From an uncultured Alphaproteobacteria bacterium (GTDB lineage Bacteria; Pseudomonadota; Alphaproteobacteria; HIMB59): a stretch of DNA of 64,000 bases. Made by a program: the position numbers and the translations under genes. Below the pieces are notes generated by a model. It worked only from the letters and a program-made list of their open reading frames with translations. It ran no database searches and was not told where the DNA came from. Numbering within the stretch: the stretch's first letter is position 1; each line of letters begins with the position of its first letter. The stretch is taken from the NCBI GenBank assembly GCA_902515765.1, contig CABXVZ010000001.1, positions 1-64,000 of the forward strand, in the 5' to 3' direction. Positions 1 to 20,021 of this stretch are shown here, piece after piece.

Positions 1-1
1 A

Positions 2-433
2 AAAGATAAAAAAAAACATCGTGTATTTACTTTACTTGGTGACGGCGAACTTTCTGAGGGATCTGTTTGGGAGGCTGCTACATCAGCTTCAAAATATAAC
101 CTGGATAACTTAGTAGTGATAATAGACAGGAATAAATTGCAAATTACAGGAGGCACTGAAGAGGTTAACCCGATAGAACCATTATCAAATAAGTTTGAGT
201 CATTTGGTTTTAAAGTTCAAGAGGCTGATGGTAATAACATAGAAAGTCTTTTAAATATCCTCGAAAATATTCCATTTCATCAAGATATGCCAAATATGAT
301 TATTGCAAATACAATTAAAGGAGCGGGTATTAGCTTTATTGAAAACCAAGTATCTTGGCATCATAAAGTTCCAACTAAAGAGGAATTTAATTTAGCTATT
401 CAAGAGCTCGAGGAGAGTATAAAAAATGCTTAA
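2..433 (+). CDS. Transketolase, N-terminal (TPP-binding) subunit, 5' truncated by window edge
   Basis: Open frame from base 2: KDKKKHRVFTLLGDGELSEGSVWEAATSASKYNLDNLVVIIDRNKLQITGG, the transketolase GDGE...N TPP motif; overlaps the C-terminal subunit gene. Confidence 0.9.
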   Translation, partial: KDKKKHRVFTLLGDGELSEGSVWEAATSASKYNLDNLVVIIDRNKLQITGGTEEVNPIEPLSNKFESFGFKVQEADGNNIESLLNILENIPFHQDMPNMIIANTIKGAGISFIENQVSWHHKVPTKEEFNLAIQELEESIKNA

Positions 434-1367
434 CAACTTAGGTAAGCCTAATTTAGAAATTTTTGCTGATACCTTATTGATGGAGGCTAAAAAAAACTCA
501 AGAATTGTTGTTGTGACAAGTGACTCAAGAGGTTCCGGAAAACTGTTACCTTTTGGTAAGGAATTACCAGAACAATTGGTAGAGGTAGGTATTGCAGAGC
601 AAAATCTTGTGGGGATTAGTGCTGGATTAAGCGCTTCAGGAAAGAAGGTATTTGCCGTTTCACCCGCAAGCTTTCTAACTGCTAGATCTTTAGAGCAAAT
701 AAAAGCAGATATTGCATATTCTGACCAGCCTGTATGTTTGGTTGGGATAAGTGCAGGAATTAGCTATGGTCAATTAGGATCTACCCATCATTCAATTCAT
801 GATTTTGCTGTAATGAGATGTATCAATAATATGACAATTGTTGCTCCAGCAGATAACTTTGAGGCATCAGAGGCTATAAAACAAGCTGTCAGCTACGATC
901 ACCCCTTATATATAAGGTATGGGAAAAAACCGATGATAGATATTCATTCTAGTGGAACACAATTTCAAATCGGAAAAGCCATAACCATTCAAGAAGGAGA
1001 AGATGTTGCGTTAATAGCTACTGGGGAGACAGTTCAAAGGGCTTGTCTCGCAAGTCAAATTCTTAAAGAGAATAATATTAATTCAACAATAGTTAGTATG
1101 CACACTATTAAACCATTTGACTCAGAAACTTTTTTAAAAATAGCAAAAAAATCAAAGGTAATTGTTTCTATAGAAGAGCACAGTGAGTTTGGTGGACTGG
1201 GAGAGCAATGTGCCAGCTTGATTGCTCAAAATCAAATAAATACAAATTTTAAAATTATTGGAATACCCGATGAATATATGGTCAACGGTTCACAATCTGA
1301 TGTTTTAGACTACTATAATATGAGTCCAGAAAAAATTGCACATATTGCAAAATCTCTTATTGATTGA
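426..1367 (+). CDS. Transketolase, C-terminal subunit
   Basis: Pyrimidine-binding and C-terminal domains (VEVGIAEQNLVGISAGLSASGKKVF, STHHSIHDFAVMR); 8-bp overlap with upstream subunit. Confidence 0.9.
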   Translation: MLNNLGKPNLEIFADTLLMEAKKNSRIVVVTSDSRGSGKLLPFGKELPEQLVEVGIAEQNLVGISAGLSASGKKVFAVSPASFLTARSLEQIKADIAYSDQPVCLVGISAGISYGQLGSTHHSIHDFAVMRCINNMTIVAPADNFEASEAIKQAVSYDHPLYIRYGKKPMIDIHSSGTQFQIGKAITIQEGEDVALIATGETVQRACLASQILKENNINSTIVSMHTIKPFDSETFLKIAKKSKVIVSIEEHSEFGGLGEQCASLIAQNQINTNFKIIGIPDEYMVNGSQSDVLDYYNMSPEKIAHIAKSLID

Positions 1368-2836
1368 TGGGCTACATCTCCATTGACTCTAGCACTTCTT
1401 CAACAACGATTATTGTTTTTGACGAAAAGTTAAAAATTAAAAAAAAAATTCAAAAGGAACATAAACAGATATTCACTCCTGAAGGATATGTAGAACATGA
1501 CTTAAATGAAATATATCAAAATCTTATTGATTTGATGAGGATGGCCTCACAACTAGAGTCTGAACCAAAATTTATAAGTCTGACTAATCAGCGAGAGACC
1601 TTTGCTCTTTTTGAAAAAGAAACGGGCACACCTATCCATAACGCTATAGTCTGGCAATGTACACGAGGTCAAAAGTACTGTGATGAGATAATTAATAATC
1701 CCTCTCTTTCCAACAGAATTACCCAAAAAACTGGTCTGAAAGCTAATTCTTTTTTTTCTGCGAGTAAGTTGCAATGGGTTTTGCATAATAAGCCAGAAAT
1801 TAAAAAAAAATTTGATAATGGGAGTATTTTGTTTGGAACTATTGATACATATCTATTGTATCGTTTGAGTAATTGTCAAAATTATATAACAGACACTACA
1901 AATGCTTCTCGCACTTTGTTATTTAATTGCTTGGAGAATAAGTGGGATGAAGATCTTTTGTCTATTTTTAAAATTACAAAAAGCATCGCTCTTCCAATTG
2001 TCAAATCTAGTTCTGATCACTTTGGAGATAGTGATTTTGAAAAATGCTTCTCAAAAAAAATTCCAATTATTGGTGTTGTTGGAGACGCTCAAGGATCTTT
2101 TTTTGGAAATTTTTGTTTTAGTGAGGGTGATACAAAAATAACAACAGGTACAGGTTTTAATATTCAAACTAATATAGGAAAAAAATTTACAATAGATAAA
2201 AATTCTTTTACATCTCTTGCTTATACCAAAGGTAATGAAAATTATTATTCTCTTGAGTGCCTTAGTTCTTTCGCAGGAGCCACTATTTCTTGGTTAAAAA
2301 ATAATTTAAGAATTATAGATAATCCTAATGAGAGCGAAGAACTATCTAAAAAAGTTAATAGTTCAGAAGGTGTTTGTCTTATTCCCGCTTTTACAGGACT
2401 TGGTCCTCCCTTTTGGAAACCAAAGGCTCGAGCAAGTTTTTTTGGAATTAATGCGTCGACAAATAAATATCATATAATAAGAGCTTCCTTAGAGTCAGTT
2501 GCGTTCCAAATGGTTGTTTATATGGAATCTCTGAAAAATTCTAAAAATATTAATTTTCACAATATTGTAATTGACGGTGGTATGGTCAAAAATGATCTAT
2601 TTCTTCAAATAATTGCTGATCTTTTAGGCACTGAGATCAAAGTTCCAATTATAGAAGAGATGTCATCATATGGATCTATTTTAATGGGAATTCAAAAAAA
2701 CCAACAAATTGGGGACTTAGAAGAGTTAAAAAATTTTAAAATTGATCAAAAAGTCATAAAACCCCAACTTAATTCTAGAATAAAGGGGTCCTACGATGGA
2801 TGGAAAGATACAATTCATAAACATTTTATGAGATAA
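1364..2836 (+). CDS. FGGY-family carbohydrate kinase, glycerol kinase-like
   Basis: GlpK-like motifs: SIDSSTSSTT, NAIVWQCTRGQ, FGTIDTYLLYRL, TDTTNASRTLLFN, GLGPPFWKPKARASFFGI, IDGGMVKNDLFLQ; overlaps the transketolase stop. Confidence 0.85.
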   Translation: MMGYISIDSSTSSTTIIVFDEKLKIKKKIQKEHKQIFTPEGYVEHDLNEIYQNLIDLMRMASQLESEPKFISLTNQRETFALFEKETGTPIHNAIVWQCTRGQKYCDEIINNPSLSNRITQKTGLKANSFFSASKLQWVLHNKPEIKKKFDNGSILFGTIDTYLLYRLSNCQNYITDTTNASRTLLFNCLENKWDEDLLSIFKITKSIALPIVKSSSDHFGDSDFEKCFSKKIPIIGVVGDAQGSFFGNFCFSEGDTKITTGTGFNIQTNIGKKFTIDKNSFTSLAYTKGNENYYSLECLSSFAGATISWLKNNLRIIDNPNESEELSKKVNSSEGVCLIPAFTGLGPPFWKPKARASFFGINASTNKYHIIRASLESVAFQMVVYMESLKNSKNINFHNIVIDGGMVKNDLFLQIIADLLGTEIKVPIIEEMSSYGSILMGIQKNQQIGDLEELKNFKIDQKVIKPQLNSRIKGSYDGWKDTIHKHFMR

Positions 2837-2905
2837 AAAACAAGTCTAGGATTTAAACATAATTTCTTATAAATTAAGCCGACTTATATATATAGGAGGA
2901 TAACT

Positions 2906-3940
2906 ATGAGAAAACTATCTCTAGTGCTTGCTTCATTTTTGGCTGTAGCATTTACATTCGCTACTTTACCTGCAAAAGCAGGAAGTCATGTTGTTGAGGC
3001 TTGCTTGATTACAAAAACCGATATCAACCCTTTCTTTGTTAAAATGAAAGAAGGAGCTGAAAAAAGAGCATCAGAAATGGGTGTTAAACTATCATTTTTT
3101 GCTGGTAAAGTTGACGGTGACCACGAAACTCAAGTTAGAGCTGTGGAAACTTGTATAGCTTCAGGAGCAAAAGGAATTTTAATTGCTGCTTCCGATACAA
3201 AAGCGATTGTTCCTGTTCTTAAAAATGCACAAGACAATGGTCTTCTAGTTATTGCACTAGATACTCCACTTGAGCCAATTACTGCTGCAGACTCTACTTT
3301 TGCAACAGATAATTTCAAAGCTGGTGAATTAGGTGGTGCTTGGGTAGCTGCAAAATTAGGTGCAGATGCTGCTAATGCTAAAATTGCTATGCTAGATCTT
3401 AACGAAAGTCAGCCTTCAGTGGGTGTTCTTAGAGACCAAGGTTTCTTAACTGGTTTTGGTATAGACGTGAAAGATGTATCAAGATGGGGTGATGAAGATG
3501 ATCCACGTATTATTTGTAACGAAGTTACTAATGGTAACGAAGAAGGTGGAAGAACTGCGATGGAAAAATGTCTTGCAAAAGATCAAGACATCAACGTAAT
3601 TTACACCATTAACGAACCAGCAGCTGTTGGCGCTTATGAAGCACTAAAAGCTATGGGTAAAGACGATGGTAGTGTTCTTATCGCTTCAGTTGACGGTGGT
3701 TGCCCTGGTGTAGCTGACGTTGATAGAGGTATCATTGGAGCAACATCTCAGCAGTATCCATTATTAATGGCTTCACTAGGTGTGGAAGCTATTGCAGCTT
3801 GGGCTGCAGATGGATCAAAGCCTTCAAATACTCCAGGACTGGATTTCTATAACACAGGTGTAAACCTAGTTACTGATGATGCAGCTAGCGGAGTTGAGTC
3901 TATCAGTGTCAAAGAAGGCATGGATAGATGTTGGGGTTAA
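2906..3940 (+). CDS. Sugar ABC transporter periplasmic substrate-binding protein (FrcB/ribose type)
   Basis: Signal peptide [25 protein letters not shown]; type I periplasmic binding fold; AGGAGGA RBS; followed by permease and ATPase genes. Confidence 0.9.
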
Positions 3941-3959
3941 TCCAATAATCAATAATTCT

Positions 3960-3984
3960 TCAGGGCAGAATTTTTCTGCCCTGA
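3960..3984 (+). promoter_or_regulatory. Perfect 11-bp stem / 3-nt loop hairpin between binding-protein and permease genes
   Basis: TCAGGGCAGAA-TTT-TTCTGCCCTGA read directly; no U-tract after it. Confidence 0.85.
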
Positions 3985-3999
3985 TCTCTAGATTTAATT

Positions 4000-5094
4000 A
4001 TGAATAAAATTTCTGATGACATATCCAAAGATCTTAAGGATCAACCTAAATTTTCCTCTGATATTGGAGAAGTTGACCAAGAGCATCATACTTTTGACAT
4101 TGGAGAACAGTCAAATTTAAAAAAAATTCAACACTTCCTTCATGGAAATCCGACAATAGTTCCTGTTATTATTTTAGTTCTTAGTGTTATTGGCTTTGGA
4201 TTTTTAGCTGGAGGTAAATTCTTTTCAGCTTTTAATCTCTCATTGATCGTCCAGCAAGTAACAATAGTTGGAATATTAGCAGCTGCTCAAACTCTTATTA
4301 TACTTACTGCCGGTATTGATCTGAGTGTAGCCGCTATGATGGTGCTAGCCTCCGTATTTATGGGTAAGCTTTCTGTTGAAATGGGAATACCGACACTTCC
4401 AGCTATTGTTGTTGGTTTAGTTTCGGGAGTAGCTACTGGTGCCTTTAATGGATTACTTGTAACTCGATTAAAGCTCCCTCCTTTTATTGTAACCTTAGGT
4501 ACTTGGAATATTTTTTTCGCCCTTGTTATTTTCTTTACAGGTTCTCAATCAATCAGAAGTTCAGATATTGAAATTCAAGCCCCTCTTCTTCACTTTTGGG
4601 GAGAAAGAATTAACCTAGGTGGTTTCGTATTTACCTATGGAGCTTTTTTAATGATTGGGATTTTTATTTTCCTATGGTTCTTACTCAATAAAACAGCATG
4701 GGGTCGGCACGTTTATGCTATTGGCGACGATAAAGAAGCTGCCGAACTCTCAGGAATAAGAACAGATCGAATGCTTGTCTCTATTTATGCAGTAGCAGGA
4801 CTAGTGATTGCCATTGGTGCTTGGGTTTCTATTGGGAGAGTGGGTTCAGTTTCTCCTACTAGTTTTTATGAAGGAAATTTGGATTCTATTACTGCGGTCG
4901 TGATTGGAGGTACCTCATTATTTGGAGGTAGAGGAACTATTATTGGATCTCTTTTTGGAGCTTTGATTGTGGGTGTGTTCAGCTCCGGTCTATCTATAGC
5001 AGGATTAGATGTTTTATGGCAACGTTTTGCTTTGGGCTGTCTTATTATTATAGCAGTGGGTATCGACCAATGGATTAGAAAGGTGTCAAATTAA
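4000..5094 (+). CDS. Sugar ABC transporter permease (FrcC/RbsC type)
   Basis: Multi-TM; TAGIDLSVAAMMVLASV and AVVIGGTSLFGGRGTIIGSLFGALIVGV motifs. Confidence 0.9.
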   Translation: MNKISDDISKDLKDQPKFSSDIGEVDQEHHTFDIGEQSNLKKIQHFLHGNPTIVPVIILVLSVIGFGFLAGGKFFSAFNLSLIVQQVTIVGILAAAQTLIILTAGIDLSVAAMMVLASVFMGKLSVEMGIPTLPAIVVGLVSGVATGAFNGLLVTRLKLPPFIVTLGTWNIFFALVIFFTGSQSIRSSDIEIQAPLLHFWGERINLGGFVFTYGAFLMIGIFIFLWFLLNKTAWGRHVYAIGDDKEAAELSGIRTDRMLVSIYAVAGLVIAIGAWVSIGRVGSVSPTSFYEGNLDSITAVVIGGTSLFGGRGTIIGSLFGALIVGVFSSGLSIAGLDVLWQRFALGCLIIIAVGIDQWIRKVSN

Positions 5095-5858
5095 TGGAGC
5101 CTATTTTAGTAGCTAAAAACTTGTCTAAAAAATATGGTAAAGTGGTTGCATTAGAGAGCGCTAATTTAGAATTGTATCCTGGCGAAGTTTTAGGTGTCAT
5201 CGGAGACAATGGTGCAGGAAAATCAACACTTATTAAGGTTCTTTGTGGAGCAGTCACACCTGATAGTGGTGAAATATTGTTAGATGGCAAAACTGTAACT
5301 TTTACATCTCCTATTGAAGCTAGAACACTAGGTATTGAAACTGTTTATCAAAATCTAGCTCTATCACCTGCCCTCTCAATTACAGATAATATGTTTCTTG
5401 GAAGAGAAATTAGACAAAAAGGCTTTATGGGTAAATTTTTAAAATTTCTTGATAAAAAGGCTATGGAGGATGAGGCCAGAAAAAGGCTATCAGAATTGGG
5501 TCTTCTAACTATACAAAATATTAATCAGTTAGTAGAAACTTTGTCAGGAGGTCAGCGACAAGGTGTTGCTGTTGCTAGAGCAACGTCATTTGGAACCAAG
5601 GTTGTAATAATGGACGAACCAACAGCAGCCTTAGGTGTTAAAGAAAGTCGCAGAGTTTTGGAATTAATTGGGGAAGTGAGGGCTAGAGGCATACCTATTA
5701 TCCTCATCTCTCATAACATGCCTCATGTATTTGAGGTAGCAGATAGAATTCATGTCCACCGACTAGGAACAAGGCTATGTGTCATTGATCCCAAAAAATA
5801 TGAAATGTCAGATGCTGTAGCATTCATGACAGGAGCCAAAGAAGCTCCGAAATCTTAA
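5094..5858 (+). CDS. Sugar ABC transporter ATP-binding protein, single-domain FrcA type
   Basis: Walker A GDNGAGKST, signature TLSGGQRQGVAVARA, Walker B VVIMDEPTAALG; 254 aa. Confidence 0.9.
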   Translation: MEPILVAKNLSKKYGKVVALESANLELYPGEVLGVIGDNGAGKSTLIKVLCGAVTPDSGEILLDGKTVTFTSPIEARTLGIETVYQNLALSPALSITDNMFLGREIRQKGFMGKFLKFLDKKAMEDEARKRLSELGLLTIQNINQLVETLSGGQRQGVAVARATSFGTKVVIMDEPTAALGVKESRRVLELIGEVRARGIPIILISHNMPHVFEVADRIHVHRLGTRLCVIDPKKYEMSDAVAFMTGAKEAPKS

Positions 5859-6484
5859 TTAGTTAAAATATAATCTGAGGCTGAGCTATTATTCAAAACA
5901 TTTAAGCCATTTGGTAGATCATTTTGATAAACCTTTTGATAAGTGTCTTCTTTAGAAAGATTAAAACTCTTCCAACGATCAAGAAGTCTTTTTTCTAAAA
6001 CTTTTTCTTCACAACTAATCATCACACTAACATCAAAAAATTTTTGGAGATTATCCCAGGGCTTGGATTTTAATAAAAGATAATTTCCTTCTACTACAAT
6101 TACCTTTGTCTCTTTGGGTATGATTGTAGCAGAAGACCTTGACAACTCTAAAGATCGATCAAAAATTGGAACTATTACCTCTGGCTCATTTTGTAGTCTT
6201 GATAAAAAACTTATTAGGCCCCTAACATCAAAAGTTTCTGGAGCTCCTTTTTTAGAGATGAGGTTTCTATCTTTTAAAATTTGGTCATCTAAATGAAAAC
6301 CATCCATTTGTAAGACACTTGCTTGATAACCCTTAGAATTCAGATCTTGAATTATTTTTTCAGAAATGGTGCTTTTACCCGAAGCTGGCGGTCCTGAAAG
6401 AGCAATAAAATAGCGATTTTTATCAGTATTATCGAGGTTGTAAGATAAAATTGCTAATAACTCGTTATAGTTTAATTGGTTCAT
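5855..6484 (-). CDS. P-loop kinase of the uridine kinase/pantothenate kinase superfamily (FrcK-like)
   Basis: Walker A GPPASGKST; MDGFHLDD; VEGNYLLL motifs; next to FrcBCA-type genes. Confidence 0.75.
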   Translation of the reverse strand: MNQLNYNELLAILSYNLDNTDKNRYFIALSGPPASGKSTISEKIIQDLNSKGYQASVLQMDGFHLDDQILKDRNLISKKGAPETFDVRGLISFLSRLQNEPEVIVPIFDRSLELSRSSATIIPKETKVIVVEGNYLLLKSKPWDNLQKFFDVSVMISCEEKVLEKRLLDRWKSFNLSKEDTYQKVYQNDLPNGLNVLNNSSASDYILTN

Positions 6485-6501
6485 AATTTTTAGTTATCAA
6501 T

Positions 6502-7947
6502 TTATCCAATATAAAATTTCTTCCATTCTATAAAACGCTCTTGTAAGACTCCTGTCAAATTATTGTCACTGGAAATAGTTTTTTGAACTAAAGGGGAAGA
6601 CAGTACATCTTCCGGCTTATAATTGTTAAATCCTAAAAATGCTAATCTTGCAGCTCCAAAAGCTGCCATGGCATCTGATGCTTCAGTGATGGCTAGGTCG
6701 CGATCTAAAATTGAAGCTAATAATTTGATCCAATTTTCATTTTGTGACCCACCTCCAATAACGAAAATATTATTTAATTGAATTCCAGTTTTAGCTAAAG
6801 CTTGATAATTATCATTTAATCCAAAAGATATGCCTTCAATAAGACTATAAATTAAAGAAGACCTATTAGTTTCTATTCCCATATTATGAAAGCTTGCCCT
6901 GACATGTGGGTCGTTAATTGGAGTTCTTTCTCCTGTTAGATAGGGTAAATAAAATGGGGCATTTTTAATCAAATCTTGTGATTGAATTGTTTGATTGAGG
7001 TGATCAGTGATTTCGTTTAGAGAAGAGTCAAAGGTTTTGACAAACCAGTTAACATTAGAAGTACAAGAAAGCATTACTGACATTAAATGCCAAGTATTTG
7101 GTAAAGAATGACAAAAGGAATGAATAGCATCATCATAATTTTTTAAAAATTTTTTCGTAGACCCAAAAATAACTCCAGATGTTCCTAAAGACAAAGAGGC
7201 ATCGCCTTCATCATAAAGACCCAGACCTACAGCAGCAGCAGCATTATCACCTGCGCCTCCATAAACTTGGCACTGAGAGCTAAAACCATATCTCTCTGCA
7301 ATATCTTTTTTTAAAACTCCTGTTTGATCAGTTCCCTCACATAATTCAGGCATCTGAGATATACTCATAGAACTAGCATCTAATAATTTTTGAGACCATT
7401 TTCTTTTCTCAACATCTAACCAATAGGTGCCGGAAGCGTCAGATAAATCACTATGAAATTCTCCAGTGAGATAAAACCTTAGGTAGTCCTTTGGGAGTAA
7501 AACCTTATCTATTGACTGAAAATTCTTAGTTTCATTATGCTTTAGCCATAAAACTTTTGGTGCTGTGAAACCAGGCATGGCTATATTTCCTGCTATATCC
7601 ATTACAGAAATATCCTTCATAATTTCTTCACACTCTTGATGACTTCTTGTGTCATTCCAAAGGATACAAGGTCTAATTACTTGGTGGTTACTATCTAAAC
7701 ACGTAGCTCCATGCATGTGTCCTGAAAAAGAAATTGCCTTGATTTCACTGAGATTCATTTTTTCAGAAAGTTTTTTAAGACAGGCTTCTAAAGCTATAAT
7801 CCAGGATGAGGGTTCTTGTTCAGACCAACCACTGTGAGGATTAGATAGGGGAATATCATCACTTGAAACACTTTGGATGATTTCCTGCTCCTCCCCTATT
7901 ACTAGACATTTCATAGAAGAAGTTCCCAAGTCTATTCCTAAATACAT
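6502..7947 (-). CDS. xylB: Xylulokinase
   Basis: FGGY kinase: MYLGIDLGTSSMK, SFSGHMHGATCLD, ILWNDTRS, YGGAGDNAAAAVGLG. Confidence 0.88.
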   Translation of the reverse strand: MYLGIDLGTSSMKCLVIGEEQEIIQSVSSDDIPLSNPHSGWSEQEPSSWIIALEACLKKLSEKMNLSEIKAISFSGHMHGATCLDSNHQVIRPCILWNDTRSHQECEEIMKDISVMDIAGNIAMPGFTAPKVLWLKHNETKNFQSIDKVLLPKDYLRFYLTGEFHSDLSDASGTYWLDVEKRKWSQKLLDASSMSISQMPELCEGTDQTGVLKKDIAERYGFSSQCQVYGGAGDNAAAAVGLGLYDEGDASLSLGTSGVIFGSTKKFLKNYDDAIHSFCHSLPNTWHLMSVMLSCTSNVNWFVKTFDSSLNEITDHLNQTIQSQDLIKNAPFYLPYLTGERTPINDPHVRASFHNMGIETNRSSLIYSLIEGISFGLNDNYQALAKTGIQLNNIFVIGGGSQNENWIKLLASILDRDLAITEASDAMAAFGAARLAFLGFNNYKPEDVLSSPLVQKTISSDNNLTGVLQERFIEWKKFYIG

Positions 7948-8018
7948 AAAATTATTATATAGAGTTAAAAATTATTTTCTATTTATACAATAATTTAAAT
8001 AATGATAATGTTCTCAAT

Positions 8019-9011
8019 ATGAATAAATCCCTGATCTCAAAACTACAACAAATTAAGAAGCAAAAATATCGTCCAAAGGATTTTATCATCGCTGATGCAA
8101 AAGATGGTGATATGGCAATGGGTATTATAACTCCTGGCCCTGAAAGAGATAAAAAGGGTAAAATTTTGAAAAAATATAAAAAGCTTGATGATTATAAGAA
8201 TGCAATGGTAGCTATGACAAAATCTCAACTTGTAGATATTATGTTAATGTCGGCGTCAGTAGGAGAAGAATTAGTAGAAAAAAAAATCTTTAAAAAATCT
8301 AGTGTTACCCCAGCAATTAGAATGAATGATACCTCTGATATTTGGTTAATGAGAAATGGAAATTATAGAACAACTAATCCACGACCTTTTCGATCAGCAA
8401 GAATTGAGAGAGTGAGTAAATTAGTAAATTTAGGATTATTTTCTATCACTTTTTCTAAAAATGTAGATTTCGATTTAGCTATGTTGAACTCTTATAGTGA
8501 TTTTAGAACAGAAGCTCTAAAATTTAAATTCAAACATTTTTTAGAAATTTTCAATCCCCCTATAGACATTGGAATGAATTCTTTAGAGCTTGGGAACTAT
8601 GTAAATGATTGCATAATTAAAACTCTGGCTGGGCAGACAAAAGAAGAAAGACCTTTATTTTTAAAAATTGCATACAATGGACCTAAGGCCATGGAGGATT
8701 TATCTAGTTATGACCCTGAAAATTTAACAGTTGGAATTTTAGGAGGAAGTAAGGGTACGACTAGAGATTGTTTTGAGTTAATTAAAAAAGCAAGTAAATA
8801 CGGAGCAAAAGTTGCTCTTTTTGGACGTAAAATAAATCACTCAGAGGACCCAATTACCCTAGTAAAAATAATGAGAAAGCTTGTAGAAAAAGATATTTCA
8901 TCAGAAGATGCTGTCAAAATGTATCACAACGAATTAAGTAAAAAAAAATTGTCTTCAGATCGAAGTCTTAAAAGCGACTTAGAAATTACTGACCCCATAT
9001 TAAAATTATAA
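8019..9011 (+). CDS. Class I (DhnA/LacD/DeoC-like) aldolase-fold protein, function unassigned
   Basis: C-terminal TIM-barrel-like segments LFLKIAYNGPKAMEDL (candidate Schiff-base Lys), VGILGGSKGTTRDCFELI, GAKVALFGRKIN. Confidence 0.6.
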   Translation: MNKSLISKLQQIKKQKYRPKDFIIADAKDGDMAMGIITPGPERDKKGKILKKYKKLDDYKNAMVAMTKSQLVDIMLMSASVGEELVEKKIFKKSSVTPAIRMNDTSDIWLMRNGNYRTTNPRPFRSARIERVSKLVNLGLFSITFSKNVDFDLAMLNSYSDFRTEALKFKFKHFLEIFNPPIDIGMNSLELGNYVNDCIIKTLAGQTKEERPLFLKIAYNGPKAMEDLSSYDPENLTVGILGGSKGTTRDCFELIKKASKYGAKVALFGRKINHSEDPITLVKIMRKLVEKDISSEDAVKMYHNELSKKKLSSDRSLKSDLEITDPILKL

Positions 9012-9980
9012 CTTCTTAATGTTTGGCAATTTGCCAGAAGAGGCATCTACCTTCATCATAGCAGCTCCAGCTGCGTGAGCTTTCAATAAAGTAGTTTTCA
9101 TATTCCAATTTTCATAAATGCCGTAAATAAAACCTGCACAAAATGCATCACCTGCACCTACAGAGTTTACAATTTTACTTTTAGCAATTTTTTTGGATTT
9201 AGTATGTATACTTTCATTTAAAGAAATATATAGAGACTCATCAGGACTATGAATAATTAATGCTTTAAGGATACCTTTTTTAAAAATTTTTTTAGACAAT
9301 CCAATTAATTTTTTTTTATTTAAATTTTTTTTGGAATTGATAATTGACTCTTTGAATAATAGTTGAGCCTCAATTTCATTTAGTAATAAATAATCAATAT
9401 ATGGCAATGAGCTAAAAACAATTTTCTGAAATTGGGGGTCTTTATTTGAAGCTAAATCCACTACTGTAATAATATTATTTTTTTTTGCTTGCTTAAGAAT
9501 TATTTGAAGCCGAGTTTGTTTATTGAAAAATTGATCAAGCTTACCCAATAAAGTTATATAGCCTACATATAAAATCTTAGGTCTATTTTTTAATTTGTTT
9601 AATTTAAAATGGTGGGTGTCCAATAAGTTATTAGCACCTGCAAAGTATAGAAAAGTTCTCTCTTTTTGTTTTTCAAACATACAAACACTATGTGAGGTGG
9701 ATGCACTCTTAGATGCAACTAAAAGTTGTGATTGAATTTGATGTTTTTGGCAGTGTTTTTTTATAAAAGAGCCATTTGTATCAGACCCAATGGAGCCCAT
9801 TGCAATCATAGGATATTTAAAACCCAAAGAGTTTAAATCTGTTAAGACATTAGAAGGCCCTCCGCCAACACATTGAAAGCTTTCAATAATTGATTCTAAT
9901 TTTCCCCTCTCTGGTAATTGCTGAATCTTATAAGTGGTATCTACACACCAAATACCTAGCCCAATAATTCCTTGGGGCAT
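9006..9980 (-). CDS. PfkB-family carbohydrate kinase
   Basis: GGGPSNVLTDLNSLG N-terminal motif and NSVGAGDAFCAGFIYG catalytic motif. Confidence 0.88.
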   Translation of the reverse strand: MPQGIIGLGIWCVDTTYKIQQLPERGKLESIIESFQCVGGGPSNVLTDLNSLGFKYPMIAMGSIGSDTNGSFIKKHCQKHQIQSQLLVASKSASTSHSVCMFEKQKERTFLYFAGANNLLDTHHFKLNKLKNRPKILYVGYITLLGKLDQFFNKQTRLQIILKQAKKNNIITVVDLASNKDPQFQKIVFSSLPYIDYLLLNEIEAQLLFKESIINSKKNLNKKKLIGLSKKIFKKGILKALIIHSPDESLYISLNESIHTKSKKIAKSKIVNSVGAGDAFCAGFIYGIYENWNMKTTLLKAHAAGAAMMKVDASSGKLPNIKKL

Positions 9981-10645
9981 TAAATTTCATTCCATAAAGG
10001 GTGAATGGCTTCCTCGTCTTCTTCTATTTGACTGAATCTACCAACTGTCTCTAAGAAGTAATTATCATTATTATCGTCATTAACCTGGGAGACTTCTCCT
10101 GCCATCACCATGCCTGTGCCTTTCACGGCATAGAACTTATGATAAATATTTCTTTCAACCGTTACACTTTGCCCTCTTTTTAAAATCAAGGATTGATGAG
10201 GATGTATAATACTCACCTGACCGTCAACTAAAACTGAAATATCATTTGAAAGTTCTTGAGCTTCCTCATCTACTTCAACAAATTCAAGTGCTAAATCACC
10301 ACCACCACGATTTATAATGTCTTCAAGCTTAACTTTATGGCTATGATAAGGGATCTCTTGGTTGTCTTCCATAAAAAGAAGTTTTTCTGCATAAGGTTTA
10401 TCTTCGTTGTTTCCTTGAATACCATTACGTATACAAAATAGCGTAATACCTTGTTGTGCAAATAATCCTTTTCCAAAATCAGTAACGTCCCATCCCATTT
10501 GATGATCTTTACAATATTTTTTCATTTTAGGATTTTGTTCGTATTCCTTTTTAGTCCAATAGCCCCAGATAGGAAGAGTCCATGAATACTCTTCCATCAT
10601 TTGCTTTGCCCTGCTGATAGCTAAATTTATTTCTGATCTCTTCAT
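9980..10645 (-). CDS. D-lyxose ketol-isomerase family protein (cupin)
   Basis: MKRSEINLAISRAKQMMEEYSWTLPIWGYWTKKEY...; cupin HSHKVKLEDIINRGGGDLALE; 1-nt overlap with the PfkB gene. Confidence 0.8.
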   Translation of the reverse strand: MKRSEINLAISRAKQMMEEYSWTLPIWGYWTKKEYEQNPKMKKYCKDHQMGWDVTDFGKGLFAQQGITLFCIRNGIQGNNEDKPYAEKLLFMEDNQEIPYHSHKVKLEDIINRGGGDLALEFVEVDEEAQELSNDISVLVDGQVSIIHPHQSLILKRGQSVTVERNIYHKFYAVKGTGMVMAGEVSQVNDDNNDNYFLETVGRFSQIEEDEEAIHPLWNEI

Positions 10646-10691
10646 TAGAAGTTAGATTATCAAAAAATGAAATAATTGATATAATCATCTC

Positions 10692-11708
10692 ATGAAGACT
10701 ATTTTAGTAGATCCATATCCAAGAAAAATGGAACTAATTTTTACACCCCAAAAAATTCAAGTTTTAAAAAAAAATTACAATCTGATAAATGTACCAAAAA
10801 AAAATCAAGCTCTATTTTATGAAAAAAATATTCATAAAGCTAATTACATAATCGGACAACCAAATTTGCCCACTTCCCTTTTAAAAAAGGCCTCCAAATT
10901 AAGAGCCATATTTAATGTTGAGAGTAATTTCATGGATAATATGGATTATGATTATTGTTTTAAAAATAATATTTATGTTTTATCAACAGCGCCTGTTTTT
11001 GCACAAACTGTTGCAGAAATTGCAGTTGGTTTTACACTTTCCCTTAAAAGAGACATTCATCAATCTCACTTAGATTTCATTCAAAAGAAAGAAAAATATG
11101 GATTAGAAGGAAATACAAATAGTAGTTTATTAAAAAATAATAAAATTGGTTTCATTGGATTTGGAGATTTAGGTAAAAGCCTCAAACCACTTCTAGAGCC
11201 CTTTACATCTCAATTTTATATCTATGACCCTTGGCTACCAGAAAAGTTGATAAAGAATAGTGGTTGCAACTCCTCTTCACTAAAAAAAATTTTTAAAGAT
11301 TGTGACGTTGTCTATGTACTGGCTACAATTACTTCCAATAATCAAAGTATGATTGATAAAAAACTCTTAAACCTCATGAAAAAAAATGCATGTCTTTTAA
11401 TCTTAAGCAGAGCCAGTGTTATAAATTTTCATGACTTAATTCAAATCTTAAGAAAAGGTAAGATTAAAGTTGCTACAGATGTCTTTCCAGAGGAGCCTGT
11501 AAAAAAAAATGACCCTCTAAGAAAGGTGAAGAATATATTATTTTCAGCTCATCGAGCTGGGGCCTTGAATTCTGTATTTTTTGAAATGGGAGAAATCGTT
11601 TATGAAGATCTTCAGCTTATGAGTAAAAATCTTCCTCCACGGCTTTGTCGTCGAGCAGAACGTGAGACAGTTAAAAGTCTTCGCTCTAAACCTGTTGATG
11701 TTAATTAA
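10692..11708 (+). CDS. D-isomer-specific 2-hydroxyacid dehydrogenase family protein
   Basis: GFIGFGDLGKSL Rossmann motif; DVFPEEP and SAHRAGA catalytic motifs. Confidence 0.82.
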   Translation: MKTILVDPYPRKMELIFTPQKIQVLKKNYNLINVPKKNQALFYEKNIHKANYIIGQPNLPTSLLKKASKLRAIFNVESNFMDNMDYDYCFKNNIYVLSTAPVFAQTVAEIAVGFTLSLKRDIHQSHLDFIQKKEKYGLEGNTNSSLLKNNKIGFIGFGDLGKSLKPLLEPFTSQFYIYDPWLPEKLIKNSGCNSSSLKKIFKDCDVVYVLATITSNNQSMIDKKLLNLMKKNACLLILSRASVINFHDLIQILRKGKIKVATDVFPEEPVKKNDPLRKVKNILFSAHRAGALNSVFFEMGEIVYEDLQLMSKNLPPRLCRRAERETVKSLRSKPVDVN

Positions 11709-11748
11709 TTCTATTGAATAACATGTATTTATTTAGTTCTATAGACAG

Positions 11749-12207
11749 ATGTTAATAAATATTGATCCCATACTTAGCCCTGAAGTCCTTTGTACCCTTA
11801 GAGAAATGGGGCATGGTGATAAGCTAATTTTATGTGACTCTAATTTTCCTGCCTATTCAAATAATTCCCGAGTTCATAGGATAGATGGCGTTGATGCTGC
11901 TAGAGCAGCCAAAGCTATTTTATCTGTTTTTCCTTTAGACAGCTTTATTGAGTCTCCTATACAAAGAATGGAAATTGATGGAAAACCTGAAGAAATTAAT
12001 GAAGTTCATCAGGAGCTAATTGATGTGACCAAAAAAATTGCAGGAGAGCACTGGAAAGTATCTTCGATTGAGAGATTTAAATTTTATGAGGAAGCAAAAA
12101 AAGCTTACGCAATAATTACAACAAATGAAACTAGACCTTTTGGATGTTTTATCTTTACTAAAGGAGTTGTAAAGCCAGATGGTTCCGTCTGGGTAATAGA
12201 TAAGTGA
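11749..12207 (+). CDS. RbsD/FucU-family sugar mutarotase
   Basis: MLINIDPILSPEVLCTLREMGHGDKLILCDSNFPA, a FucU-like signature. Confidence 0.88.
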   Translation: MLINIDPILSPEVLCTLREMGHGDKLILCDSNFPAYSNNSRVHRIDGVDAARAAKAILSVFPLDSFIESPIQRMEIDGKPEEINEVHQELIDVTKKIAGEHWKVSSIERFKFYEEAKKAYAIITTNETRPFGCFIFTKGVVKPDGSVWVIDK

Positions 12208-13121
12208 GTATCTGTGTTTTAGGAATTTTTGTAGCTGATCTATGTTTTTTTGCAGACAATATTCCTACCAAAGGACAAACCATATTAGGAAACAAACATA
12301 TAATTGGCCCTGGAGGTAAAGGATCCAATCAAGCTATTGCAGCAGCTAGAATTGGAGGAGAAGTCTCTTTTATTTCTAAAGTAGGTAAAGATAATTATGC
12401 TAACTTAGCTTTTTCTCTTTATGACGAAGCCGGAATTAATTACGAAGGAGTTGAGGTAGATACTAAAATTTCAACAGGAGCAGCGGGAATTTTAATTAAT
12501 GAAAATACAGGAGACAATGCCATTAATGTGGTACCGGGAGCAGCGGGAACTATTGATAATTCTTTAATCGATAAGTTTCTCCCTATTATCCAAAAATCAA
12601 AAATATTTTTAACTCAATTGGAAACTCCCAAGGAAGCAACTCTTTACGCACTCAAAAAAGCCAAAGAAATAGGGTGTATTACTATTTTAAACCCAGCGCC
12701 TGCCAGCTCTATACCAGAAGAATATTTTCAATATATTGATTATTTTACTCCTAATGAAACAGAAGCAAGTTTTTATTTGAACAAAAATATTGAAAATGAA
12801 AATGACTGCAAAGATGCGGGAACAGATTTTCTAAATAAAGGTATAAAAAATATTTTAATAACCTTGGGGGACAAAGGGTGTTATTTCAAAAACCATGAAG
12901 AAGAGTTTGTGATACCTGCTTCCTCTCTAACTAAACCTGTGATTGATACAACCGGTGCAGGAGATGCTTTTAATGGGGCTTTTAGCGTGGCTCTCTCTCA
13001 AAACAAATCCTATAAAGAATCAATTGAATTTGCTAGTTTAGTAGCAGGAGTTTCTGTTACCCGAGAGGGTGCTGCCAATTCAATGCCATTTAAAAAAGAA
13101 TTAGAGGAGAATTTATTATGA
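12204..13121 (+). CDS. rbsK: Ribokinase
   Basis: GGKGSNQAIAAARIGG and DTTGAGDAFNGAF motifs; GTG start overlapping the fucU-like stop (GTGA). Confidence 0.88.
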   Translation: MSICVLGIFVADLCFFADNIPTKGQTILGNKHIIGPGGKGSNQAIAAARIGGEVSFISKVGKDNYANLAFSLYDEAGINYEGVEVDTKISTGAAGILINENTGDNAINVVPGAAGTIDNSLIDKFLPIIQKSKIFLTQLETPKEATLYALKKAKEIGCITILNPAPASSIPEEYFQYIDYFTPNETEASFYLNKNIENENDCKDAGTDFLNKGIKNILITLGDKGCYFKNHEEEFVIPASSLTKPVIDTTGAGDAFNGAFSVALSQNKSYKESIEFASLVAGVSVTREGAANSMPFKKELEENLL

Positions 13122-14143
13122 GCTACCTAGCAAATAAAAAACGTTATCAGACTATGCAATATAGAAAATGTGGTAAGAGTGGTGTGAAATTACCCTTAAT
13201 CTCAGTGGGGTTATGGCATAATTTTGGTGGAAAGGGAATGTCAGCGGAAGCAAAAAAAATACTTTTTGAATCTTTTGACTCGGGAATAACCCATTTTGAT
13301 TTAGCTAATAATTATGGACCTCCCTATGGAAGTGCTGAGTCTAATTTTGGTAAAATTATGAAAAATGATTTTAAAAAATATAGAGATGAATTAATTATTT
13401 CCTCTAAAGCTGGATATGATATGTGGGATGGCCCATATGGTGAGTGGGGCTCTAAGAAACATGTAATCGCAAGTTGTGATCAGAGCTTAAAAAGAATGAA
13501 TCTGGATTATGTCGATATTTTTTATTCTCATAGATTTGATCCAAATACTCCTTTAGAGGAAACAGCAGATGCTCTAGAAAGTATTTATCGCTCTGGAAAA
13601 GCGCTATATATAGGAGTGTCTTCTTACTCTTCTAAAAAAACAAATGAGATGATAAAGATTTTGAAGACGAGAGGTATAAAACTCTTTATTCATCAACCCT
13701 CTTATTCTTTGATAAATCGTTGGATTGAAAATGGACTTACCAAAACTCTTCAAAAAAATGGTGTTGGATGCATTGCTTTTTCCCCCTTAGCTCAAGGGTT
13801 TCTATCTCAAAAATATTTATCAGGAATACCATCTGGTACTAGGGTCAGTGAAAATAGCTCTTTTAGCAAAGATTTAATTACTAAAAAAAATACTAAAATT
13901 ATTAATGACTTAAATATAATAGCTAAAAAAAGAGGTCAGACTCTCTCTCAAATGGCATTAGCTTGGGTAATAAATAATAAAGCTATCACGTCTGCTCTTA
14001 TTGGTGTGAGAAATGTCAAACAACTTAGAGATAATATTGCAGCGCTTAATAATTTAAAATTTAGCAAAGAAGAAATTAAAAAAATTGACCAAAAAGCAAA
14101 AGAGGGTGATATCAATCTTTGGGCGCCTTCTAGCTCTCATTGA
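13118..14143 (+). CDS. Aldo/keto reductase, L-glyceraldehyde-3-phosphate reductase-like
   Basis: DSGITHFDLANNYGPPYGSAE, DYVDIFYSHRFDPNTPLEET; ATGA overlap with rbsK. Confidence 0.82.
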   Translation: MSYLANKKRYQTMQYRKCGKSGVKLPLISVGLWHNFGGKGMSAEAKKILFESFDSGITHFDLANNYGPPYGSAESNFGKIMKNDFKKYRDELIISSKAGYDMWDGPYGEWGSKKHVIASCDQSLKRMNLDYVDIFYSHRFDPNTPLEETADALESIYRSGKALYIGVSSYSSKKTNEMIKILKTRGIKLFIHQPSYSLINRWIENGLTKTLQKNGVGCIAFSPLAQGFLSQKYLSGIPSGTRVSENSSFSKDLITKKNTKIINDLNIIAKKRGQTLSQMALAWVINNKAITSALIGVRNVKQLRDNIAALNNLKFSKEEIKKIDQKAKEGDINLWAPSSSH

Positions 14144-14805
14144 TAAATATATTAGTATTTGGAGACTCTAACAGTTGGGGTTACGTTGATGAAGATGAAG
14201 GTCAAAGGTACGATAAGAGATGGCCATTAATTTTGGCTGACTATTTAAATCAGTCTGGTTTGTCATGTAATTTGCATGAAGACTCACTTCCTGGAAGAAC
14301 CACTAATGTCAATGATGAGAGAGATGGAATTCATCTAAATGGATTATCTGTTTTTAAATCATGCTTACTCGCCCACTCTCCTATTGATATGATTTTGTTA
14401 ATGCTAGGCACGAACGATTTAAAAAAAAGATTTGGAAGAGAGGCAGATGATGTTGCTAAAGGGATTGAGGAGCTTATCACAATGTCTCAAAATACCTTTT
14501 CTGGTGAGGGCAGCTGGCATAGCGAAAATATGTCAAAAATTATAATTTTATGCCCTCCTACTTTAGGATCAAAAAGCAATGATATTAACTGGATTAATCA
14601 TGAAGAATGGGAAGGTGGATTTTACAAATCAAAATTACTTAGTAATTCATATCAAAAAGTTTGCTCACAAAAAAAAGTTCAATTCATTGATAGTAATTCC
14701 ATAATTCAATCTTCAGATAAAGATCCGATACATTGGTCTAAAGAAACACATCATATTTTTGGAAAAGAAATTGCTAAAATTTTGCTGAAAGATATTAAAC
14801 CTTAA
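14140..14805 (+). CDS. SGNH/GDSL-family hydrolase
   Basis: ILVFGDSNSWG block I, LMLGTNDLK block III, C-terminal D..H (KDPIHWSKETHH); TTG start overlapping upstream stop. Confidence 0.85.
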   Translation: MINILVFGDSNSWGYVDEDEGQRYDKRWPLILADYLNQSGLSCNLHEDSLPGRTTNVNDERDGIHLNGLSVFKSCLLAHSPIDMILLMLGTNDLKKRFGREADDVAKGIEELITMSQNTFSGEGSWHSENMSKIIILCPPTLGSKSNDINWINHEEWEGGFYKSKLLSNSYQKVCSQKKVQFIDSNSIIQSSDKDPIHWSKETHHIFGKEIAKILLKDIKP

Positions 14806-15802
14806 CCCATTTCTTTTTTTTAATAGATTTAAAAATAGCATCTAAAACTTTCATATTTTTCTTAGCATCTTTTAAATCATAATCCACTTTTGTTCGATTT
14901 ATCAAATGATTAGAAAATGCTGTGGATTGCCTCTCGTACTGATCAGTAGCAGGGAAAACTTTAGTGGTGTTTTCCTTTCGATAGATAGAGTGGCCATTGT
15001 ATACGACCACAGTAGTGGGTTTAGAAGCAATAGCGTTGAAAGGATTTTCAACAACAATAGTTTTTTTGGTACCTAAAATAAATACTTGTTGAGAGTTATT
15101 GCTCTGTGTTGCTACGGTATAAGAAGAGTAAATACCCCCAAAATCCATCATTACAGAAGAAAGGATGTCAGTTTGAAATTTTGGATCTTTAATAGCAGTT
15201 GCCACTAATCTTTTTGGTTCTTGATTGAGAATATATCTAGAAATTACAGTAGGATAACAACCTATGTCATAGATAGCACCTCCTCCAAATTTAGAGATAT
15301 TCCTAATATTTTTGGGATCCTTATTAAAATATGAAAAAATAGTTGAGATACTACTTACAGCTCCAATATTTCCATCTTGAATATATTTTTTAACCCATTG
15401 CCATTGGGGGTGGTGTCTAACCATAAATGCTTCTTTGATTATAACTTTATTTTTTTTAGCTGCTTTTATTAAAGGGTCTAAATCTTTTGCTTTTAGAGAT
15501 AAAGGTTTTTCTAAAAGAATATGTTTTCCATAGGAGCTTGCTTCTATACTTGTTTTTATATGTAAGTGGTTAGGTAAGGGGTTATATATAATGTCAATTT
15601 CAGGATCTGTATATAGCTCTTTATAAGAGCCATAGCTTTTAGGAATTTTAAACTTTTTTGCTAAAGTTTTTGCTTTTAAAAGATCACGACTAGCTAAAGC
15701 GGAGACTTTGCTATTTTTTGATTTTTGAATTGCTGGGATAACATGTTCCCATCCAATCTTCGCAGTACTAATAATTCCCCAATTCACTTTTTTATTTTTC
15801 AT
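14795..15802 (-). CDS. Gfo/Idh/MocA-family NAD(P)-dependent oxidoreductase
   Basis: WGIISTAKIGWEHVIPAI; IYNPLPNHLHIKTSIEASSYGKHILLEKPLS (EKP motif). Confidence 0.88.
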   Translation of the reverse strand: MKNKKVNWGIISTAKIGWEHVIPAIQKSKNSKVSALASRDLLKAKTLAKKFKIPKSYGSYKELYTDPEIDIIYNPLPNHLHIKTSIEASSYGKHILLEKPLSLKAKDLDPLIKAAKKNKVIIKEAFMVRHHPQWQWVKKYIQDGNIGAVSSISTIFSYFNKDPKNIRNISKFGGGAIYDIGCYPTVISRYILNQEPKRLVATAIKDPKFQTDILSSVMMDFGGIYSSYTVATQSNNSQQVFILGTKKTIVVENPFNAIASKPTTVVVYNGHSIYRKENTTKVFPATDQYERQSTAFSNHLINRTKVDYDLKDAKKNMKVLDAIFKSIKKKKWVKV

Positions 15803-15894
15803 ATTCTTAATTTACACTTATTATCAAAAGTAACAATGTAGGTAGTATAAAAATTGTAAAAATTTTTATATGATATAACTATATAATTTCTATC

Positions 15895-16821
15895 ATGGTA
15901 GCTAAGCACAAAATTGGAATCGATTATGGGGGAACTAAAATTGAGGGAATTCTCTTAGATGACTCAGGAAAAGAAATTTTACGAAAGCGTTCAACCTATG
16001 AAAAAAATTACCAAAGTGGCATCGATACAGTAAAGTCGCTTGTATCAGAATTTGATAATTACACAGAACAAAAAAATACGGTTGGGATCTGCATTCCAGG
16101 ATTTTCATCAAATGAAACAGGGTTAGTCAATAATGCTAATTGTGTTTGGATAAATGATAAGCCTTTTCAAAAGGATTTAGAGAGAGAATTAAATCGCGAA
16201 ATTAAAGTGATGAATGACGCCAATTGTTTTGCTCTATCAGAGGCTATCGATGGCTCTGGTTCAAAATTTAATTCTGTTTGGGGTGTGATAATCGGATCAG
16301 GATTTGGAGGTTCTTTTGTCTTTAATAAACAAGTTGTAGAGGGAGTTAATCAAGTGGCTGGTGACTGGGGTCATCAACCTTTGCCTTATCCAACTAAGGA
16401 AGAATATGATCTAAACGTACAATGTCAGGTGGGTAATTGCCAAAGACCTCTTTGTGCCGAACAATTTATTTCTGGGATTGGATTTACTAAAATTTTTAAC
16501 AACAAGTATGGAACAAATCTTAGAACTCGTGAGATCGTGGCTTTAGAAGCCAATGGAGATGAGAGGGCTAAAAAGGAATTTGATCTTTACGAAGATCGTT
16601 TTGCAAGATTAATTGCTGTGATGATCGGCATAGTTGATCCTGATGCAATTATTTTTGGTGGAGGTATGTCTAACGTTGGAAGACTTTATGATAATATACC
16701 AAAATTACTTCCTAAATATACTTTTAGTGATAAAGTAAGGAATAAGATTTTACGTAACACTCATGGTGACTCTAGTGGCGTCAGAGGAGCTGCCTGGCTG
16801 TGGGACTCAGATAAATTTTAA
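15895..16821 (+). CDS. ROK-family sugar kinase (fructokinase/Mak-like)
   Basis: GIDYGGTKIEGILLDDSG; zinc motif GHQPLPYPTKEEYDLNVQCQVGNCQRPLCAEQFISG. Confidence 0.85.
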   Translation: MVAKHKIGIDYGGTKIEGILLDDSGKEILRKRSTYEKNYQSGIDTVKSLVSEFDNYTEQKNTVGICIPGFSSNETGLVNNANCVWINDKPFQKDLERELNREIKVMNDANCFALSEAIDGSGSKFNSVWGVIIGSGFGGSFVFNKQVVEGVNQVAGDWGHQPLPYPTKEEYDLNVQCQVGNCQRPLCAEQFISGIGFTKIFNNKYGTNLRTREIVALEANGDERAKKEFDLYEDRFARLIAVMIGIVDPDAIIFGGGMSNVGRLYDNIPKLLPKYTFSDKVRNKILRNTHGDSSGVRGAAWLWDSDKF

Positions 16822-16822
16822 A

Positions 16823-17905
16823 ATGAAAAAAATAGGAATTCTAACAAGTGGTGGTGATTGTGGTGGTTTAAATGCTGCAGTGCGTTCAATTTTTTTTAGA
16901 GCTAAAAACACCTATGGTATGGAAGTGTTAGGTATTCAAGATGGTACAGTAGGTTTAATGCAAAGGCCTGTTGCATTTCTACCTTTAGACTATCAAACAT
17001 TTAGTGGTTCCTTACTTCGACAAGGAGGGACTTTTCTAGGTACAACTAATAAAGGCAATCCTTTCAAATTCCCAATGCCTGATGGCTCTTATAAAGATAG
17101 AACTCAGGATATTATTGATGGCTACCATGAGCTTGGATTAGAAGGCCTGATTGTTATTGGTGGAGATGGTAGTATGTCCATACTGACTGAAATTGCAAAA
17201 AGAGGAAACCTAAATATCGTAGCAATTCCTAAGACAATTGATAATGATGTTGGCGCAACTGAAAGCTCAATTGGATTTAATACTGCTGTAAGTGTTGCCA
17301 CTCAAGCACTTGATAACCTCCAATCAACTGCTGCCAGTCATAATCGAACAATGATTTTGGAAGTAATGGGTAGAGATGCTGGTCATATAGCTATTAATGC
17401 AGGAATAGCTGGAGGAGCAGATGTGATTTTGATACCAGAGATAAATTATTCTATAAATGGAATTGTAAACAAACTTACGGAGATGAAAAATAGAGGTATA
17501 GTGCACTCTTTAATGGTTGTGGCAGAAGCTGTCAAAACCGAAAATGGAAAAACTTATGAAATAGAATTTGCAGATGGTCAAAAACGATTAGGCGGCATCG
17601 GTAGCTATTTGTCTGAGGAAATTATGAAAAAAACAGATGTTGAGTGTCGTGTAACTTCCTTAGGACACGTTCAAAGAGGAGCTCCTCCAACACCTCGTGA
17701 TAGAATCTTAGCAAGTGCATTTGGAGTTTATGCAGTAGATTTGTTAGCAAATTATAAGTTCGATCGAATGGTTGCTTGGAAAGATCGAAAAGTTGTCGAT
17801 GTTGCTATTAGCGAGGGTATCTCAACCTATAAAGTTGTTGATAGAACAGATCCATTAATAGAAACAGCTCTTGCTTTGGGTGTCTATGTGGGTGATATCG
17901 ATTAG
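16823..17905 (+). CDS. pfkA: 6-phosphofructokinase
   Basis: ILTSGGDCGGLNAAVR, IGGDGSMSI, IPKTIDNDVGATESSIGFNTA, EVMGRDAGHIA; ATG at 16823 preferred to the longer ORF start at 16763. Confidence 0.9.
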   Translation: MKKIGILTSGGDCGGLNAAVRSIFFRAKNTYGMEVLGIQDGTVGLMQRPVAFLPLDYQTFSGSLLRQGGTFLGTTNKGNPFKFPMPDGSYKDRTQDIIDGYHELGLEGLIVIGGDGSMSILTEIAKRGNLNIVAIPKTIDNDVGATESSIGFNTAVSVATQALDNLQSTAASHNRTMILEVMGRDAGHIAINAGIAGGADVILIPEINYSINGIVNKLTEMKNRGIVHSLMVVAEAVKTENGKTYEIEFADGQKRLGGIGSYLSEEIMKKTDVECRVTSLGHVQRGAPPTPRDRILASAFGVYAVDLLANYKFDRMVAWKDRKVVDVAISEGISTYKVVDRTDPLIETALALGVYVGDID

Positions 17906-18739: not shown

Positions 18740-18764
18740 ATATTTTTTTGGTAATTTGCAATCT

Positions 18765-20015: not shown

Positions 20016-20021
20016 AATTTC

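Follow-up and report, generated by a model that had tools for sequence, protein, structure and literature searches.

A probable lyxose/mannose utilisation module with an unnamed aldolase-like protein family in the marine HIMB59 group

Do the neighbouring genes of a D-lyxose/D-mannose isomerase, a PfkB-family sugar kinase, an aldolase-like protein (ALD) and a xylulokinase (XylB) in a marine alphaproteobacterium constitute one sugar pathway, and which sugar would enter it? The genes were analysed in a stretch of 64,000 nucleotides (contig CABXVZ010000001.1, positions 1 to 64,000, termed the window), which is part of a 965-kb draft genome (64% complete) of the HIMB59/AEGEAN-169 group. This group is abundant in the surface ocean and its sugar use is said to separate it from SAR11 in a study whose text contains neither 'lyxose' nor 'aldolase' (PMC10308909). 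A sequence-only reading of the window had proposed that a ketose is either phosphorylated and cleaved by ALD or leaves through XylB. With a probability of about 0.6, the locus encodes a variant of a lyxose/mannose utilisation module, in which import is followed by the isomerase, the PfkB kinase and the aldolase, and XylB forms a side exit. This logic is supported by the gene content and its linkage, the intact catalytic residues, the phylogeny of the kinase and the predicted fold of ALD.

The combination of families had not been recognised as a named pathway in the sequence-only reading, but it is described in enterohaemorrhagic Escherichia coli (EHEC). There, the lmuKAIZYX genes of the genomic island OI167 encode a kinase, an aldolase, an isomerase and an ATP-binding cassette (ABC) transporter for the use of lyxose and mannose (PMC10128022), and the same arrangement was found in Citrobacter. 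In both EHEC and HIMB59, a cupin lyxose/mannose isomerase is clustered with related PfkB-type kinases, an aldolase and an ABC transporter for sugars, and the HIMB59 locus is best regarded as a marine form of the lmu module. The two differ in the aldolase, which is the class II enzyme LmuA in EHEC and a member of an unnamed DhnA-like family in HIMB59, and in the transporter, which is RbsABC-like and FrcBCA-like, respectively. In addition, XylB and an FrcK-like kinase are linked to the cluster in HIMB59 only, and the single operon of EHEC contrasts with HIMB59 genes located on both strands. A two-component regulator of the LmvK/LmvR type was not detected by a Pfam scan of the window genes from 426 to 20372.

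A further form of the cluster, in the order DhnA-type aldolase, Gfo/Idh, lyxose isomerase and PfkB, was identified on three plasmids of Rhizobium and in Thioclava (L086:7023-10700, L212, L217, L218). The literature searched contained neither a description of this cluster nor anything relevant on a link between DhnA and lyxose. As in HIMB59, the isomerase and an LmuK-type PfkB adjoin a class I aldolase, and these isomerases are the closest by sequence to that of HIMB59 (44-55% identity). Unlike in HIMB59, the aldolase is of the canonical DhnA type, a Gfo/Idh gene stands in between, the transporter is a different one and XylB is missing. The isomerase-PfkB pair thus occurs with three types of aldolase (class II in Enterobacteria, DhnA in Rhizobium and Thioclava, and ALD in HIMB59), and this recurrence is the best evidence that ALD fills the aldolase step. 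The isomerase/kinase/aldolase logic is already known from lmuKAIZYX; new in HIMB59 are the displacement of the aldolase by an unnamed family and the fact that this family is linked to XylB and FrcBCAK.

The parallel to the tagatose-6-phosphate pathway that had been drawn holds for the general logic of isomerase, kinase and class I aldolase, which LacABCD and the sulfo-EMP proteins YihSVT share with HIMB59. It is otherwise loose, because both systems use isomerases of other families, LacAB acts on a phosphorylated sugar, PfkB stays below every cut-off for tagatose-6-phosphate kinases (34 bits in the model NF010033, cut-off 469), and ALD is neither LacD nor YihT by any model.

The best solved relative of the isomerase is the E. 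coli O157 enzyme 3kmh (E-value 6e-44). The metal site of the HIMB59 isomerase is intact, with H101, H103, K106, E108 and H169 conserved in Citrobacter LmuI, which agrees with the metal ligands and the lysine described for this family (PMC8378251). The score in NF051472 was 205 bits, under the cut-off of 350, and a preference for lyxose or mannose cannot be read from the sequence. A type I phosphomannose isomerase could not be detected in any of the 10 HIMB59 genomes searched, in which the controls were positive; mannose would therefore require a different entry. Among viral contigs, no relatives of the isomerase were detected.

The PfkB protein carries the GAGD motif with the catalytic Asp278 and is 34.6% identical to Citrobacter LmuK (174 bits, blastp). 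In a maximum-likelihood tree, the HIMB59 proteins are placed within a set of 16 rows (support 99/98), which also takes in Citrobacter LmuK, the Thioclava PfkB encoded next to a lyxose isomerase, and all nine of the aldolase-linked PfkBs that were sampled from other alphaproteobacteria, with Frk and the ribokinases (RbsK) outside; due to long branches and several rows of unusual composition, the inner order is uncertain. For EHEC LmuK, fructose kinase activity was reported (PMC10128022).

The assignment of ALD as DhnA/LacD-like is borne out by its predicted fold, and family libraries barely support it. No Pfam model was matched, including PF01791 (DeoC/LacD), nor was any match significant in 19 homologues, and the NCBIfam matches of DhnA type were weak and confined to residues 235-305 (best 28.6 bits, cut-off 241). 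An AlphaFold model, calculated from an alignment of the sequences of the window and of the loci found by genome search, is an eight-stranded barrel with a predicted local distance difference test (pLDDT) value of 86 and a predicted template modelling (pTM) score of 0.88. The best fold match is the ADH synthase MJ0400 (E-value 2e-10), and LsrF, the archaeal class I fructose-1,6-bisphosphate (FBP) aldolase and LacD were matched as well, all four with a Foldseek probability of 1.00 and about 10-15% identity. Strands 7-8 could also be aligned to profiles of LsrF-type aldolases (hhalign E-value 6e-8, probability 94.7%). The residues K216, D26, K28 and E176 are invariant, K216 being present in 21 of 21 members. 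In the model, K216 is located on the sixth barrel strand, on which the Schiff-base lysine of DhnA/LacD-type enzymes is expected, and E176 on strand 5; K216 is thus likely to be the Schiff-base lysine, as far as the predicted structure goes. A copy with 99% identity is present in the single-cell assembly AG-333-K07.

The explanation that ALD replaces a missing glycolytic FBP aldolase was rejected, as a class II aldolase was present in nine of 10 HIMB59 genomes searched; in the genome of the window itself, the only class II match (C8:11344) lies off the window contig. A search of this genome for the class I family PF00274 carries no information, because the controls were silent.

All four genes of the sequence-only reading were confirmed as open reading frames with the proposed overlaps and orientations (Table 1). 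The isomerase and PfkB genes share one base in the junction TAATG, the PfkB and ALD genes converge with an overlap of six bases (9006-9011), and the ALD and xylB genes diverge from a 71-base gap. Promoter-like matches occur on both strands of this gap and are not specific in such AT-rich DNA, for which reason a promoter and terminator scan of the locus gave no informative signal.

The gene order was compared in 32 HIMB59 loci on genome contigs, scored only as far as each contig extends. It reads split transketolase, FGGY kinase, FrcBCA-like transporter, FrcK-like kinase, XylB, ALD, PfkB, isomerase, 2-hydroxyacid dehydrogenase, FucU, ribokinase and aldo-keto reductase, and is kept with the exception of L043, where the contig is inverted-duplicated, and L058, where the frames are broken. 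The arrangement is not due to chance, being shared by loci whose proteins are as little as about 56% identical. In the two most rearranged species (G015 and G024; L101 and L103), the outer neighbours have changed, and the genes for the FrcK-like kinase, XylB, ALD, PfkB and the isomerase are kept together, with an additional gene of 321 amino acids between xylB and the ALD gene, which encodes an aldose 1-epimerase in G015 according to Pfam and was matched by size in G024. These five genes and the transporter are taken as the module. The ALD gene is present in 43 of 52 genomes of the genus, many of which are incomplete drafts. In the sister family, only two of the 48 genomes have it.

Outside HIMB59, the neighbourhoods of 30 loci with an ALD gene, which belong to two further families of alphaproteobacteria, were mapped by best hits to a small reference set, so that the counts are approximate; in two of them (L197, L200), the ALD gene itself was not drawn by the greedy map. 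An LmuK-type PfkB gene immediately adjoins the ALD gene in 13 loci, an FGGY kinase and/or a GlpD-like gene belongs to the cluster in nine, an ADP-dependent kinase is located nearby in three, and no kinase was recognised near it in five. Plasmids of Aureimonas, Shinella and Pararhizobium carry transporter, ALD and PfkB genes in this order, without the isomerase. In plasmid records of Agrobacterium, Martelella and Vibrio, ALD is combined with FGGY and GlpD-like genes, and in one of S. americanum with an ADP-dependent kinase; in all annotated plasmid records examined, it is listed as 'hypothetical protein'. The expectation of a conserved linkage elsewhere was thus confirmed for pairs of the genes and for analogous triples, and the four-gene set with ALD was found in HIMB59 only.

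From these data, we consider it somewhat better than an even bet that the members of the ALD family are class I aldolases of ketose phosphates, unnamed and covered by no Pfam model, which are used in a modular way with unrelated sugar kinases (PfkB, FGGY with GlpD-like, and ADP-dependent) in Hyphomicrobiales-type alphaproteobacteria, on a Vibrio plasmid and in HIMB59, where they would serve a route from mannose to triose without phosphomannose isomerase. If this is true, the family is a new enzyme to assay, and the mannose route without type I phosphomannose isomerase gives HIMB59 cells a testable substrate.

The substrate is best indicated by the FrcBCA-K genes, which adjoin the four genes and had not been included in the sequence-only reading. 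FrcBCA imports fructose, mannose and ribose, of which only fructose was confirmed by the literature searched. FrcK influences fructose uptake in Sinorhizobium meliloti (PMC10433430). The frc-type locus of that species has the order RbsD/FucU, ROK, sugar-binding protein, permease, ATPase and kinase, in agreement with the published frcRS and frcBCAK genes (PMC10433430), and shares with HIMB59 a similar binding protein (67.9% identity over 92%), the permease, the single-domain ATPase and the FrcK-like kinase (42.6% identity to the protein after frcA) in the same order. It differs from HIMB59 by the use of Frk for fructose and by the lack of isomerase and aldolase; furthermore, the HIMB59 frcK-like gene is on the opposite strand, converging with frcA in an overlap of four bases. 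The copies adjoining ALD genes in Aureimonas, Shinella and Pleomorphomonas are 44-57% (permease) and 59-67% (ATPase) identical to those of the window. On plasmids of Phyllobacterium and Pseudosulfitobacter, the isomerase gene follows immediately after frcBCA, which points to mannose as an imported sugar that needs isomerisation.

For the substrates, the position of phosphorylation, the products and the continuity of the steps as a single pathway, we infer the following course. The FrcBCA-like transporter, aided by FrcK, would import mannose and fructose, possibly also ribose or lyxose, and the isomerase would form fructose from mannose and xylulose from lyxose. The ketose would be phosphorylated by PfkB, most likely at C1, and ALD, acting as a class I Schiff-base enzyme via K216, would cleave the product to give dihydroxyacetone phosphate plus an aldehyde, which is glyceraldehyde in the case of fructose. 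Xylulose may instead be converted by XylB, which carries the motif GGAGDNA, to xylulose-5-phosphate.

Several observations weigh against this module. The isomerase and the ALD family occur together only in HIMB59 within a sample of 385 genomes of the class, and the synteny within HIMB59, taken alone, may merely reflect a stable genome. Between PfkB of the window and the aldolase-linked PfkBs found in other alphaproteobacteria, the identity is only 22-27%. K216 was located in a predicted model, and it is not reliably reached when the sequence is aligned to known aldolases. Fructose could be processed without this route, by a class II aldolase separate from the module together with a ROK fructokinase-like gene and a phosphofructokinase (PFK). 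Finally, the EHEC kinase and aldolase were dispensable for growth on lyxose (PMC10128022), so that the aldolase step is putative even there; in HIMB59, the linked XylB would take care of xylulose.

The most serious rival is that two independent routes are co-located, with the isomerase and XylB for lyxose, PfkB and ALD for another imported ketose, and no flux from isomerase to aldolase. The operon of Aureimonas, Shinella and Pararhizobium, in which the pair can use an imported ketose without the isomerase, and the clear identity of XylB as a xylulokinase speak for it. This separation is nevertheless judged unlikely, considering that in HIMB59 the isomerase gene overlaps that of PfkB on the same strand and that the two are neighbours elsewhere with other aldolases. 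ALD might also have the DhnA fold and a Schiff-base mechanism but catalyse a different reaction, either thiolase-like (as in LsrF) or ADH-synthase-like, beside a simple feeding of mannose or lyxose into fructose or xylulose phosphate. At about 14% identity, its nearest neighbours in fold and sequence do include MJ0400 and LsrF besides FBP aldolases, but the linkage of ALD to several unrelated types of sugar kinase and the presence of other aldolases in its place in analogous clusters make such a reaction improbable. The same isomerase-kinase-aldolase logic could in principle act on an unusual sugar, i.e., a higher-carbon sugar, a sugar acid or a sulfosugar. In favour of this, E. coli YdjH, to which PfkB is closest among solved structures, acts on higher-carbon sugar acids. 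Sulfo-EMP has a similar logic, but the sulfo-pathway isomerases named in a review are the aldose-2-epimerase-like YihS or the FucI-like SqvD and not cupin lyxose isomerases (PMC9594981); sulfoquinovose degradation (sulfo-EMP2) was rejected on account of SqvD. Given also the clear relationship of PfkB to LmuK and that no sulfoquinovosidase-like gene was detected among the window neighbours scanned, an unusual substrate is considered highly improbable.

Table 1. Features of the locus in the window.
Feature	Coordinates	Strand	Basis
FrcB-like periplasmic sugar-binding protein	2906..3940	+	PF13407, 138 bits
FrcC-like ABC permease	4000..5094	+	PF02653, 126 bits
FrcA-like single-domain ABC ATPase, 254 amino acids	5094..5858	+	length and order as in the frc locus
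FrcK-like P-loop kinase	5855..6484	-	NF006746, 248 bits (cut-off 250 narrowly missed)
Xylulokinase XylB	6502..7947	-	TIGR01312, 530 bits (cut-off 380)
71-base divergent intergenic region between xylB and ALD gene	7948..8018		sequence
ALD, DhnA/LacD-type class I TIM barrel, putative Schiff-base K216	8019..9011	+	AlphaFold fold
PfkB-family sugar kinase, LmuK-like	9006..9980	-	PF00294, 119 bits, no equivalog reached
D-lyxose/D-mannose isomerase, cupin family, LmuI-like	9980..10645	-	PF07385, 257 bits

Among the single loci, the part around xylB and the ALD gene is duplicated in inverted form in L043 (CACBUI010000017.1), probably a chimera of single-cell amplification. In the metagenome-assembled genome BOYI01000001 (L034:10988-11962), the PfkB frame is apparently interrupted, possibly by a sequencing frameshift. 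Copies of the 2-hydroxyacid dehydrogenase (44%) and FucU (46%) adjoin the transporter-aldolase-PfkB operon in another alphaproteobacterial family (L182:12478-14034, G926); the two genes in the window may therefore have an older association with the module. The ADP-dependent kinases beside ALD genes (L083:7307-8563, L184, L185, L192) are of the glucokinase/phosphofructokinase type, which is unexpected in such a setting for these bacteria, and are accompanied by DeoR and in most cases by genes of short-chain dehydrogenases/reductases.

Next to the isomerase, an inositol-type set of a PfkB, a KduI/IolB-like protein and a class II aldolase was found in two species (L101:8239-10893, L103:50-2645). 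The assignment was made with Pfam in G024, and in G015 it relies on gene size and order, backed in part by best hits. The class II aldolase of this set is the sole PF01116 match found in the G024 genome. In the window, the gene at 17906-18739, located after that of PFK, has no Pfam match and a weak similarity (38 bits, cut-off 150) to 2-oxoglutarate-Fe(II) oxygenases of the 'sporadic carbohydrate cluster' type. The cluster upstream of the transporter (window 1-2836, L031:576-4824) encodes a TIM-barrel protein similar to xylose/rhamnose isomerases, the split transketolase and the FGGY kinase, which is glycerol-kinase-like and under every cut-off. A literature search on D-apiose yielded nothing that bears on this cluster, which is reminiscent of a transketolase-type pathway for a rare sugar.

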